A DNA stretch of 37,938 nucleotides, taken from the NCBI GenBank assembly GCA_011191975.1, contig DUFA01000033.1, positions 1-37,938 of the forward strand, read 5' to 3'. The notes under the pieces are model-generated. The model was not told the DNA's origin, made no database searches, and saw only the letters and a program-made list of their open reading frames with translations. A program made the position numbers and the translations under genes. Source of the stretch: Dehalococcoidia bacterium (GTDB lineage: Bacteria > Chloroflexota > Dehalococcoidia > Dehalococcoidales > UBA2162). Each line of letters starts with the position of its first letter. Position 1 is the stretch's first letter. Positions 22,224 through 26,725 of the stretch are shown piece by piece.

Positions 22224-22262
22224 ATGGATTTTATCCGGTATTTTTATGGATACAGACAATAA
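22224..22262 (+). CDS. 12-codon leader ORF coupled to the first selenoprotein
   Basis: ATG at 22224 opens MDFIRYFYGYRQ and ends at TAA 22260-22262. AAAGGAG lies eight nt before the ATG, and the stop codon overlaps AAAGGAG (22261-22267), the ribosome site of the first UGSC gene. This is a textbook layout for translational coupling or for control by a leader peptide. Five of the twelve residues are Phe or Tyr, so ribosome stalling on aromatic codons is conceivable. It is too short to prove by sequence alone. Confidence 0.5.
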   Translation: MDFIRYFYGYRQ

Positions 22263-22273
22263 AGGAGTTGCTT

Positions 22274-23926
22274 GTGAGTGAAAATTCTGATATTCAGTAT
22301 GAAGTGTTAAGTCCATGGGCAGTGGTAGATTCTGTACCCTTGCGTGGTCCCGCGCCACGTTTGGACAGTCTGGATGACAAGACAATCGGTCTTTTTAAGA
22401 ATTTTAAAAGGGCTGCTGGACCGATACTTGAAGTTGTGCAAAGAGAGTTGCAGCAGAGGTATCCTTCTGCACGGTTCGTCTGGTTTAATTCGGATGCCGC
22501 CAATGTACTTGAAACGGAGACAGGTAATAAAGAGAAATTCGAGGAATGGGCGAAGAAGATCGATGCAGCGGTTACTTCCGTCGGCGACTGAGGATCGTGC
22601 ACCAAGTACCTTGCGTACAACACAGTAGCCATCGAAGATTACGGAAAACCGGTAGCATTACTTGCCAATTATGGTTTTGTCACAGATTCATACTCGGCAG
22701 CATCCGGTAAGGGAATGCCAGGAATCAGGTCTATTTCAGAAAACGTTCCCTGCGAAAGCACGGTGAAAGCTGATATTGAAACCGGAGTTGTAGAGGTTAT
22801 CGACCAGATAATCGACGCTCTGACCAGGCCGTTGACAGAGCAGGAACAGAATCCACCTCCGATGGATACCGAAGAAAAATCAAGGATAGTTTTCAAGGGC
22901 AGTCTCGAAGAGGTAAATCGATTTTTCTACAGGCGGGGATGGGGTGATGGAATGCCGATCATACCTCCCACTGAGGAAGCGGTGGCAGAAATGCTCACCG
23001 GCTCAGACTTACCACCTGACCATGTGGTGACCGAGATCATTCCCAGAATGGGTAAAGCCACGGTTGAAAAGATAGCTGTAAACGCTGTCATGGCAGGAGC
23101 TCTTCCTACCTATATGCCGGTGCTTATCACGGCCTGCCAGACGATTATGGAACCGAAGACACGCTTCGATACCTTCGAAGTAAGCACCGGATCCTGGGCG
23201 CCCTGTTACATCCTGAACGGCTCTATTCGTAAAGATATCAACCTGAACTGCAGTTCGGGCACGCTCAGCCCTGGTGATATTGCGAATGCGACTATCGGCA
23301 GGGCAATGGGTCTTATCGTCAAGAATATCGGCGGTGCCAGGAAAGCTATCGAAGATATGGGAGTGCTGGGTAATCCTTCCAAGTACTCGCTGGTGATGGG
23401 TGAGAACGAGGAGGAATGCCCATGGGAGCCACTCCATGTCAGCCGCGGATTCAGCAAAGACGACAATACCGTTACGGTGTTCTTCCCCAATTCGTACAGC
23501 CAGACAATCCCGATGCAGACTGACGATAAGGGAATACTCCAGGCTATGATAAACAATGCCAGGGGAGGTGGTATGGCAGGATTTCTGCTTAATCCTCCTC
23601 ACACGAAATACCTGGCTAACGAAGGCTGGACCCGTGAAAAAGCAATGGAGTATGTTGTTGAAAATGCCGTAACAAATACAGGGCCCGGCATACCAGTGGG
23701 TGAAAGCGAAAACGCAGTCCGCAAGGTATTCTCAGATACTTCCTGCATTATCATAGTCTGCGTGGGAGGTCCTGGAGTATTCACCGGTATCCTCACTACT
23801 GCCGGTGGCGGTGCAATGAGCACATTTGGTAATGAATTTGTCACGAAGAAAATAGAATTGCCAAAGAACTGGGATAAACTCGTGGCGAAGTACAGGAACG
23901 TCATTCCTGTTTATGAGAAATATTGA
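22274..23926 (+). CDS. UGSC-family selenoprotein, first copy (in-frame UGA at codon 106)
   Basis: Read through the TGA at 22589-22591 as selenocysteine, the frame gives 550 residues. The first 105 end in AVTSVGD, then U-G-S-C, so Sec106 and Cys109 form a U-x-x-C redox pair. The frame then continues without a break through TKYLAYNTVAIEDYGKP and VALLANYGFV into a C-terminal domain from about residue 220 (RRGWGDGMPIIPPTEEAV, KATVEKIAVNAVMAGALPTYMPVL, ATIGRAMGLIVKNIGGARK, ENEEECPWEPLHVSRG). The motif and layout fit the UGSC family of Sec- or Cys-containing proteins, whose reaction I do not know. The start is GTG at 22274, six nt after AAAGGAG. A paralogue follows 28 nt later. Selenocysteine is inferred; selA, selB, selC and selD are not in the window. 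Confidence 0.88.
22592..22618 (+). promoter_or_regulatory. Candidate SECIS recoding element of the first UGSC gene
   Basis: Directly after the UGA, GTGC (22597-22600) can pair with GTAC (22615-22618) and the inner CAAG (22603-22606) with CTTG (22610-22613) around a UAC loop. Bacterial SECIS hairpins lie inside the coding region just after the UGA, as here. The structure is modest; the stronger evidence is near-identity with the second copy at silent sites. Confidence 0.5.
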
Positions 23927-23954
23927 CGTAGATACTCTGAAAGGAGCTGCTGAC

Positions 23955-25610
23955 ATGAGTGGCGATGATGCATTATTTGAAGTTCTCAGTCCCTGGGCGG
24001 AAGCTGATCTCGTTCCGATGGAGGGACTAACCGCACCGAGGCTGAATGATCTCAATGGGAAGAAGATCGGATTGTTCTGCAATATCAAGCAGGCATCAGA
24101 CCGGATTCAGCCAGTGCTTGAACGCCGGTTAAAAAAACGGTATCCGGGAGCAGAATTCAGTTATTACCGGGGACAGGCATTCTCTGTATCCGAACTGGAG
24201 CCGCAGAACATAGATAAGTTCAATACCTGGATCGACGAGGTGGATACGGTAATTCTTGCCATAGGCGACTGAGGATCGTGCATGAAGTACCTTGCGTACG
24301 ATTCAATGTATGTTGAGAGAAGGAATAAACCTTCGGTGACCCTTGTCTATAAATATTTCCTCAACGACGCGAAGTCGGCTGCTTCCAGTCGCGGATTGCC
24401 TGCGGTACGCTTTATTCCTGAGTCTATCATTTCCGAATGCAGCGTGATGGAGGATATTGAAGCCGGCATTGACGAGGTCTTGGATGATATCATTGCCGGA
24501 TTAACGGCACCCCTTACCGAGCAGGAGAAAGATCCGGAATCACCGAAACAAGAATCTTCAGCCAGGATAATCTTTAAAGGCAACCTTGAGGAAGTGAACC
24601 GGTTCTTTTATCAGAGGGGCTGGACGGACGGCCTGCCGGTGATACCTCCCACCGAGGAAGCGGTGACGAAAATGTTGGAAGGTACCGATCTTTCACCGGA
24701 CCATGTCGTAGCCGAACTTGCACCCCGTAAAGGAAAAGCCACTGTTGAAAAGATAGCCGTTGCTGCCGTTATGGCTGGAGCGTTACCAACGTATATGCCG
24801 GTACTAATTTCCGGTGTGAAAGCGTTGGGTAATGCACCGATGGCGGATGTCTGGGCGGTCAGTACTGGTTCCTGGGCACCGCTCTGGATACTGAACGGAT
24901 CGATCAGGAAGGACCTCAATGTCAATGATGGTTTCGGGGCTTTGAGTCCGGGTGTGATGGCCAATGCAGCTATCGGACGCGCCCTTACCCTGATAACGAA
25001 GAATATCAGGGGAGTACGCCGTGAGATAGAAGATATGGGTGTGATGGGTAATCCGATGAAATACTGTCTCGTTACAGGAGAAAATGAAGAAGACAGTCCC
25101 TGGGAACCGCTTCATGTCGAACGTGGCTTGAGTAGAGAAGACAGCGCGATCTCTCTCTGTTTCCCAAATCAATACTTGCAGCCACACTCATACTCAACCG
25201 ATGACCTAGGGCTACTCAGGACGATTATCTATAACGTACCCCCCAGGGCGATGGGGACACTCACCGTGATGATAACTCCTCCCAACGCCAGGATACTTGC
25301 CGAAAAAGGCTGGGATAAAGAGAAGATCAAGCAATATATAGTTGAAAATACGAAGGCAGACCTTGAACGGACACCGCAGTATTATATGGCTGGTAATGAA
25401 GGTAAAGACCCGAAAGAACAGGTCCAGGTAATAATGGCAAGACCGGGTCAGTCAGCACCGGTGCAAATATTTGTCGGCGGTGGCTGGGGTTCCTGGACGG
25501 CACTCATGTCTGGAGGGATGCCGCATACGGAGAAAATAGAACTCCCCGAAAACTGGGATAAACTTGTTGCCAGGTATAAGAATGTAGTGCCGAATTATCT
25601 CAGGTACTAG
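23955..25610 (+). CDS. UGSC-family selenoprotein, second copy (in-frame UGA at codon 106)
   Basis: Read through the TGA at 24270-24272, the frame gives 551 residues, with Sec again at position 106 and Cys at 109 (AIGD-U-GSC). It is collinear with the first copy over its whole length: FEVLSPWAEADLVP at the start, KYLAYDSMY after the UGSC, the C-terminal domain from about residue 220 (QRGWTDGLPVIPPTEEAV, ATVEKIAVAAVMAGALPTYMPVL), and the shared end ELPENWDKLVARYKNVVPNY. The ATG at 23955 has AAAGGAG eight nt before it. An ATG at 24282 just after the UGA has a GAGGA upstream and could start a separate protein, but the first copy has ACC there, so that reading is disfavoured. Probably the result of tandem duplication. 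Confidence 0.88.
24273..24302 (+). promoter_or_regulatory. Candidate SECIS recoding element of the second UGSC gene
   Basis: ATCGTGC (24275-24281) pairs over 7 bp (one G-U) with GTACGAT (24296-24302), and inside it AAG pairs with CTT around a UAC loop. The hairpin begins two nt after the UGA, as expected for a bacterial SECIS. Confidence 0.55.
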
Positions 25611-25642
25611 ACGTAATATTATTACATTATAGAAATTATCTC

Positions 25643-25768
25643 ATTCCGGCGAAAGCTGGAATCTAGAGAATTTCTCTGGATACCGACTTTCGTCGGTATG
25701 GCGTTTAGCCCATGATTGAATAAGGTGTATTTCAGTTTCAGACTTGTCATTCCCGCGAAGGCGGGAAT
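25643..25768. repeat. Intergenic palindromic repeats between the selenoprotein and reductase genes
   Basis: Three short hairpins: ATTCCGGC/GCTGGAAT (25643-25662), TACCGAC/GTCGGTA (25681-25698) and ATTCCCGC/GCGGGAAT (25749-25768). Their wording (CATTCC-CGCGAA-GCGGGAATCC) matches a class of extragenic palindromes scattered through many bacterial genomes. They may act as transcript-end or processing signals here, which would weaken co-transcription of the reductase gene with the selenoproteins. Confidence 0.7.
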
Positions 25769-25801
25769 CCATATACAGTCGAGAGGACGAGAGGTGGACG
25801 T

Positions 25802-26725
25802 ATGTTTGACTATGATGCAGTGATAATTGGTGGTGGGCCAGCGGGATTGACAGCTGGCTTATATCTTTGTCGGGGAAACTGGCGGACGCTGCTGGTGGAT
25901 AAAGAAAGTCCAGGCGGGTATATAAAGAACATAGAACTAATCGAGAACTATCCTGGTTTTTCTAACGGTGTTGCTGGATCTCAACTTGCCGCCCAGATGG
26001 TAAAGCAGGCGACGACTTTCGGTCTGAAATTCGAACAGGCTGAAGTGTCGACTATAGAGATATTCTCCAGCAGTAAATGGGTTGGCTGCATTAACGGCAA
26101 GGGATTTACTACGGGGGCGGTTATTTTTGCCGGAGGTTCCGTGCCGAAGAGACTTGGTGTCACCGGTGAAGAAGAATTCAGAGATAAAGGTGTAATCAAC
26201 TGTGCTTTCTGTGATGGAGGTCAGTTTGCCAGGAAGACGATAGTTGTATGCGGAGGTGGTGACTCCGGGATTACCGAAGCCCTTTACCTTTCCAAAATAG
26301 CCGATAAAGTGATCGTCGTCGAAGCTATGCCGCAGTTGAATGCGACCGCTATCCTGCAGGACAGGCTGAAGGCAAATCCGAAAATGGAAGTCTATACCGG
26401 TACGATGGTGAAGGAGATCATCGGTAACGGGCAGGTCGAAGGTATTAGAATTGTAAGAAATGGGGAAAGTGAGGAAGACATCATCAAGACCGATGGCGTA
26501 CTTGTCCATATCGGCCTTGATCCAAATACTTCTTACCTTGAAGGAATCGTTCCTCTTACCAATAACGGTCAGATAGAGGTGAACGAATGGATGGAGACAG
26601 ATCTACCGGGCATCTTTGCCGCCGGAGATATCAGGAGTGATTCTCCAAGGCAGGTATCCGCCGCAGTAGGCGACGGTGCGGCTGCCGGTATGTCTGCCCA
26701 GAGGTACCTTCAGAAGCAGGGATAG
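25802..26725 (+). CDS. Thioredoxin-reductase-like FAD/NAD(P)-dependent oxidoreductase
   Basis: A 307-residue flavoprotein of the low-molecular-weight thioredoxin reductase family. FAD-binding VIIGGGPAGLTAGLYL is at residues 7-22; the redox pair is Cys134-A-F-Cys137 followed by DGG; the NAD(P)-binding GGGDSGITEALYLS comes next; and GIFAAGDIRSDSPRQVSAAVGDG is the C-terminal FAD motif. Classical reductases have CATCDG; here the middle pair is A-F. AGGTGG precedes the ATG. Placed 192 nt after two U-x-x-C selenoproteins in the same direction, it is a plausible electron donor to them (inference). It could instead serve an ordinary thioredoxin encoded elsewhere. Confidence 0.92.
   Translation: MFDYDAVIIGGGPAGLTAGLYLCRGNWRTLLVDKESPGGYIKNIELIENYPGFSNGVAGSQLAAQMVKQATTFGLKFEQAEVSTIEIFSSSKWVGCINGKGFTTGAVIFAGGSVPKRLGVTGEEEFRDKGVINCAFCDGGQFARKTIVVCGGGDSGITEALYLSKIADKVIVVEAMPQLNATAILQDRLKANPKMEVYTGTMVKEIIGNGQVEGIRIVRNGESEEDIIKTDGVLVHIGLDPNTSYLEGIVPLTNNGQIEVNEWMETDLPGIFAAGDIRSDSPRQVSAAVGDGAAAGMSAQRYLQKQG

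Follow-up and report, generated by a model that had tools for sequence, protein, structure and literature searches.

Introduction

GrdB and PrdB (PF07355), known from glycine, sarcosine, betaine and D-proline reductase, are the substrate-attacking subunits of the glycine and D-proline enzymes. In these two enzymes their selenocysteine (Sec) works together with a partner subunit (PMC13188914). A further described system is the UGSC family. The 2008 GOS selenoproteome paper presents UGSC as a major selenoprotein family of that ocean survey, suggests a thioredoxin-like fold for it, and describes a fusion of the UGSC domain to a conserved domain of unknown function, termed UGSC/Unknown_1 (PMC2398784). 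As to the number of selenoproteins per genome, the largest published selenoproteomes are those of Olavius algarvensis Delta 1, with 57, and of a Methylomirabilota MAG, with 63 (PMC13188914). The open-access, non-preprint literature searched here yielded neither a functional study of this family nor any account of an expansion like the one described below.

The present analysis concerns a 37,938-nt stretch of DNA, hereafter the window, from a Dehalococcoidia bacterium (GCA_011191975.1, contig DUFA01000033.1, forward strand). It is contig 92 of a MAG of 3.33 Mb in 164 contigs, 93% complete and 8.3% contaminated, whose closest named relatives are MAGs of the Dehalococcoidales, the order to which it probably belongs. 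The window carries two adjacent genes that resemble both described systems: their N-terminal domain is of the UGSC type and likely shares descent with the Sec-bearing region of GrdB/PrdB, while their C-terminal domain belongs to no known family.

A tandem pair of UGSC-fusion selenoproteins

The two frames (Table 1) agree with the original prediction in that each is interrupted by a single TGA, at codon 106, with GGA TCG TGC (GGATCGTGC) directly after it and homologous sequence on both sides: the two proteins are 52-53% identical over their whole length, the TGA site included. As a pair they are nothing special: the genome holds about 40 paralogues, of which these are two. Downstream of gene 2, at a distance of 191 bases and beyond palindromic repeats, lies a gene for a flavoprotein resembling thioredoxin reductase (TrxR-like). 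An Rfam scan of the window gave no match.

Table 1. Coordinates of the genes, codons, domains and RNA elements of the tandem pair and its downstream neighbour in the window
Feature	Position	Strand	Remarks
Gene 1, UGSC-fusion selenoprotein	22274..23926	+	550 residues (550 codons), Sec at 106; PF24696 5.4e-27; start GTG 22274, stop TGA 23924-23926
Gene 2, UGSC-fusion selenoprotein	23955..25610	+	551 residues (551 codons), Sec at 106; PF24696 5.5e-21; start ATG 23955, stop TAG 25608-25610
Ribosome-binding site, gene 1	22261-22267		AAAGGAG, a few bases 5' of the start
Ribosome-binding site, gene 2	23940-23946		AAAGGAG, a few bases 5' of the start
Sec codon TGA, gene 1 (GD-U-GSC)	22589..22591	+	codon 106
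Sec codon TGA, gene 2 (GD-U-GSC)	24270..24272	+	codon 106
Sec-bearing Rossmann-like (GrdB/PrdB-like) domain, predicted	gene 2 23955..24554; gene 1 22274-22873	+	residues 1-200
C-terminal domain, no known family	gene 2 24555..25607; gene 1 ~22874-23923	+	residues ~201-551 (gene 2)
Expected bacterial SECIS region, gene 1	22592..22643	+	weak predicted hairpin, -5.0 kcal/mol
Candidate SECIS hairpin directly 3' of UGA, gene 2	24273..24304	+	-11.7 kcal/mol
Palindromic repeats, ATTCCCGCGAAGGCGGGAAT type	25620-25790		between gene 2 and the TrxR-like gene
TrxR-like flavoprotein (Pyr_redox_2)	25802..26725	+	CAFC redox motif, candidate electron donor

Membership in the UGSC family, as originally predicted, stands for the broad family and fails for the narrow one. 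The Pfam model PF24696 (UGSC) aligns with gene 1 over residues 11-184 (95 bits) and with gene 2 over residues 25-184 (76 bits), in both cases above its cut-off of 25, but the NCBIfam equivalog NF041046 scores only 74 and 63 bits against a cut-off of 125. Since this second cut-off is missed, we regard the pair as fused relatives outside the narrow UGSC equivalog. The likeness covers the N-terminal ~170 residues, including the Sec motif; in contrast to the UGSC family, members in this genome carry a fused second domain, and their motifs extend to USTC, UDGC, UPGC, USGA and UHGA.

The fused C-terminal domain had been put at ~330 residues and comes to ~350. No Pfam or NCBIfam family covers residues ~200-551, and hhalign gave no relation to GrdE or GrdB (E 0.13 and 0.19). 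PDB searches likewise turned up no related solved structure for this domain. Among its polar residues, conservation is highest at D225, T233, E234, E235, T263, N324, N337, R342, E376, W383 and W534, and no Cys or His is conserved. The fusion answers to the same description as UGSC/Unknown_1, and the second domains are probably identical, a comparison made by description only; neither the copy number nor a link to GrdB was found in the accessible part of that paper (PMC2398784).

Selenocysteine machinery and the UGA codon

That genes 1 and 2 encode UGSC-domain selenoproteins is near certain, given a conserved UGA column and a full Sec machinery. All four components named in the original prediction are present in the genome: selA and selB on contig 36, tRNA-Sec (selC) on contig 10, scoring 68 bits where the gathering score is 47, and selD on contig 145, itself with one TGA. 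A lack of Sec machinery is thereby excluded. Chance or a pseudogene is ruled out because the TGA occupies the same aligned column in 32 members of this genome and at 97 of 123 foreign sites. Nor can TGA have been reassigned to a standard amino acid, since gene 1 ends in TGA and the frames hold no further internal TGA. No homologue ending at the TGA was found; split forms break at residue ~200, between the domains.

The RNA signal downstream of the UGA is of interest at the level of the family, because the hairpins of the window pair are unremarkable on their own and the signal is convincing only across family members. In this genome, the 52 bases after the UGA are more stably folded (-14.5) than other windows of these genes (-10.0, sd 4.0, n=31). 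The corresponding values in a second genome of the class, G086 (see below), are -18.7 and -13.8 (sd 4.3, n=98). The U[S/H]GA group shows a recurrent hairpin, GG(G/A)GC-AGTT-GCC, with an invariant CAGTTG loop, in which the Leu codon is TTG in 18 of 18 cases versus 13% of Leu codons. Compensatory changes on both sides of this stem occur in loci L059 and L080. A simple loop-G rule for bacterial SECIS elements did not discriminate in G086 (58/98 UGA sites versus 52% of controls); because it failed to separate UGA sites, only folding energy and the conservation of loop and codon were used.

Paralogue expansion in the genome

All gene counts derive from six-frame searches and are therefore lower bounds. 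With gene 2 as query, about 40 places in the genome were found, nearly all with exactly one TGA. An HMM built from the pair recovered 40 family segments on the fetched contigs. Of these, 32 carry a single TGA in the aligned position, another four show the motif but no TGA, and the remaining four are either fragmentary or devoid of the motif. The motifs include UGSC, USTC, UDGC, UPGC and [V/I/C/T]W-U-[S/H]GA, the last of these in 17-18 members, which no longer have the second Cys. A tree of 119 sequences unites the 17 full-length U[S/H]GA members in a single clade (support 100) and seven UPGC/UDGC members in a second one (support 97); the window pair falls among UGSC genes from other phyla.

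Among the 31 full-length members of this genome, pairwise identity has a median of 30% and a maximum of 89%. Two other MAGs of the same family, with 1-3% contamination, hold at least 23 and at least 16 copies; most other MAGs in the order hold 0-2.

A larger expansion in a second genome

A survey of the class revealed two genomes, G086 and G087, with far more candidates. G086 is a public MAG of 5.0 Mb with 7% contamination, identified by verbatim sequence in 18 loci as JACPQD01, 'Chloroflexi bacterium isolate NC_groundwater_644_Ag_B-0.1um_60_123'; selB is present. It contains at least 153 family matches (150 of the 314 candidates scored). All 98 fused loci with one TGA that were fetched carry the UGA at the Sec site, corresponding to at least 98 genes; their motifs are UGSC (36), UGTC (22), UGGC (19), UGAC (15) and others (6). 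Any two of these genes are at most 90% identical. In addition, there are ~45 stand-alone C-terminal domains, some beside stand-alone Sec-bearing UGSC genes.

Several members of these genomes deserve mention in their own right. At L297:7834-9447 (contig C101 of G086), the motif is UGTU, the second Cys also being encoded as TGA, which makes it a candidate double-Sec UxxU protein; three further full-length members listed for G086 have two TGAs. G087 (2.7 Mb) gave 106 first-look family candidates and probably holds very many copies.

Like the largest published selenoproteomes, these genomes have unusually many Sec genes. Unlike the published totals of 57 and 63, the figures here refer to one family alone: 32 in the genome of the window and at least 98 in JACPQD01. 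Judged from sequence, the predicted family genes of the latter, at least 98, would thus exceed the published maximum of 63 selenoproteins in a bacterial genome. The UGSC domain and its fusion have been known since 2008, and no published precedent for the expansion was found; what is new beside the known fusion are the motifs without a second Cys and a probable GrdB-type ancestry.

Predicted fold and probable relationship to GrdB/PrdB

The AlphaFold model of gene 2 (pLDDT 83.6, pTM 0.86) has an N-terminal domain of alternating beta and alpha elements, Rossmann-like, in which Sec106 opens helix 107-122 right after strand 98-102. A thioredoxin fold was rejected, as the order of secondary-structure elements in the model differs. 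Searches of the PDB by sequence and by fold gave no convincing relative (best Foldseek E 6e-4, TM 0.16-0.34), and a fold search with a GrdB model was uninformative too.

GrdB sequences for comparison were taken from the same order. With Sec masked, hhalign aligned the N-terminal domain to GrdB with a score of 48.2 (E 5e-6) and placed Sec on Sec; shuffling the columns 40 times gave at most 20.4, and reversing the profile gave 16.6. The probability was 86-93%, below 99%, most of it contributed by a stretch of ~40-100 residues surrounding Sec. Taken by itself, the U[S/H]GA subgroup gave 13% against the GrdB profile and did not establish the link. Around its Sec, the GrdB model has its elements in the same succession as the model of gene 2: a strand, Sec, a 16-residue helix, a strand at +21, a helix, a strand and a helix. 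PF07355 (GrdB/PrdB) is absent from the Pfam hits of the pair, and that model stops just before Sec. From these profile and model comparisons we conclude that the Sec-bearing regions of the pair and of GrdB/PrdB likely share descent. Common to both are the strand, Sec, the helix, E-x-x-G-I-P, the elements that follow and a UG[ST]C-type motif. In contrast to GrdB, the pair is devoid of the N-terminal half and the pre-Sec insertion and has its own C-terminal domain instead, the second Cys is dispensable in the family, and GrdE (PF09338, the pyruvoyl partner GrdE/PrdA) is absent from the genome.

A second group of GrdB-like selenoproteins, of ~410 residues and with motifs such as UPNC and UPGC, was observed in L171-L177, L180 and contig C75 of this genome (L173:733-1956). 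Its members also lack the N-terminal half of GrdB and have an extra C-terminal region.

Residues in place of selenocysteine and split forms

At 123 homologous sites from the first 79 public loci examined, TGA occurs 97 times; the other residues are Ser (7), Ala (5), Cys (4) and Met (3), the rest being Thr, Val, Leu, Asn or Gly. Homologues with Cys aligned at residue 106, sought on the basis of the original prediction, do exist (L126:4479-6585, L124:6623-10139, L154:2705-4706 and L159:7853-9848), but they are rare and Sec-free forms mostly have Ser, Ala or Met; Cys as the usual replacement was therefore rejected. Sec has been kept and hardly ever exchanged for Cys, which suggests a role for selenium as such in the chemistry.

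The tree implies nine gains or losses of Sec, and 26 of its 119 members are Sec-free (Ser, Ala, Met or Leu), which shows that the scaffold can be maintained in the absence of selenium. In the Sec-free sequences closest to the window pair, GSC is preserved and the Sec position holds Ala or Met. Sec-free copies tend to occur in groups of two or three (C41 of this genome, L095, L158 and L163), and several such groups adjoin glycyl-radical enzymes. The group on C41 (~33010-38421; L060:11011-16422) consists of three tandem paralogues (Leu, Ser, Ser) followed by an amidohydrolase, and sits in a genome able to make Sec. Betaproteobacteria and Chloroflexi often encode the two domains in separate genes side by side, with the division near residue 200.

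Gene neighbourhoods

A TrxR-like gene with a CxxC motif adjoins family genes in eight loci from several phyla; in the loci examined it occurs only with UGSC-type subgroups and never beside the U[S/H]GA type. One such locus, L106 (CAMDFL010000165.1), holds a close Sec homologue (46%) together with this neighbour, in a MAG whose label, Bordetella parapertussis, is doubtful. Other recurrent neighbours are TctC (14 loci), SBP_bac_5 (11), short-chain dehydrogenases (SDR; 7), glycyl-radical enzymes (6) and MmgE/PrpD (4); a CoA-transferase, a mandelate racemase, an HpcH aldolase, a transketolase, an aldehyde ferredoxin oxidoreductase and an amidohydrolase were each seen in a single case. The set of neighbours thus changes between copies, which would be expected if every copy had a substrate of its own.

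Family copies lie beside glycyl-radical enzymes and their activases in L163, L158, L096 and L070, including Sec-free copies with Ala, Met, Ser, Asn or Leu in L163, L158 and L096. The glycyl-radical enzymes of L163 and L070 fall below every specific NCBIfam equivalog cut-off.

Proposed function and alternative explanations

We propose, with a probability of roughly 0.55, that the pair are GrdB/PrdB-like reductive selenoenzymes whose paralogues have diversified over many imported small molecules, a reading in which reaction and substrates are inferred from sequence, models and gene context. The C-terminal domain would position a small organic molecule imported by the cell, the selenolate would attack or reduce it, and Cys109 of the UGSC motif, where present, would resolve the intermediate. 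Since no GrdE was found in the genome and the C-terminal domain is joined to the Sec domain or lies next to it as a gene of its own, this domain may take the substrate-activating role of the pyruvoyl subunit GrdE/PrdA. Electrons could pass from NADPH through the TrxR-like protein to selenoproteins of the UGSC subgroup. The substrate would differ between paralogues, so that the organism would carry a toolbox of Sec-dependent reductive catabolic enzymes.

Other functions of the same proteins have to be considered. They could be thiol/selenol oxidoreductases of redox defence or repair, acting on peroxides or disulfides, with the C-terminal domain as a docking or scaffold element. The UxxC motif, the TrxR-like neighbour and the thioredoxin-like fold suggested in the 2008 paper (PMC2398784) all fit this reading; we nevertheless consider it unlikely, given a predicted fold that is alternating beta/alpha and not thioredoxin, the loss of the second Cys in 17-18 members of this genome, catabolic and transport neighbours that differ for each copy, and 32-98 copies per genome, beyond the need of a general defence enzyme. 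It is also improbable that Sec serves as a non-redox nucleophile, forming a covalent Se adduct in order to transfer or lyse a group (C-S, C-halogen, C-N or acyl, for example) with no net reduction. Many copies without a resolving Cys, the occurrence of Sec-free forms, the lack of a reductase near many copies and the wide range of catabolic contexts would agree with such chemistry, whereas GrdB/PrdB, the closest homologues of known chemistry, are reductases, Cys is kept in most lineages, and nearly all of the 98 copies in G086 are UGxC.

Two more explanations would undo the observation itself. Standard gene callers would split these frames, as expected if the TGA were a true stop and each locus held two genes or one decayed gene. 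This is hardly credible given one TGA at one column in 32, 98 and 97 genes whose protein sequence is conserved before and after it, a complete set of Sec genes, a folding bias in the RNA after the UGA, and split homologues that break far from the TGA. The copy number, in turn, might be a binning artefact, with several strains or species in one MAG, and the contamination of both large genomes (8.3% and 7%) leaves some room for it. Mixed strains nonetheless fail to explain the copies, since no pair in this genome is more than 89% identical, and the ceiling among the 98 of G086 is 90%. Many copies lie side by side on single contigs, contig G+C is similar (41-51%), and the two cleaner MAGs of the same family still hold 16-23 copies, all of which makes an artefact very improbable.

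Conclusions

A broader proposal, which we hold tentatively and at somewhat less than even odds, is that a superfamily arose in Dehalococcoidia from the GrdB/PrdB Sec domain and a new substrate domain, and radiated so that a genome holds from 30 to more than 100 reductases, each specific for its own substrate. Selenocysteine is costly, and genomes as a rule use it sparingly. If the radiation is real, it would amount to the largest selenoproteome known and to an unrecognised selenium-based route of anaerobic organic-matter breakdown. The likely link to GrdB/PrdB offers a testable mechanism for the long-orphan UGSC family and speaks against the thioredoxin fold once suggested for it. Because standard callers cut such genes at the UGA, much of what uncultured Chloroflexota and others are able to catabolise has probably escaped notice.
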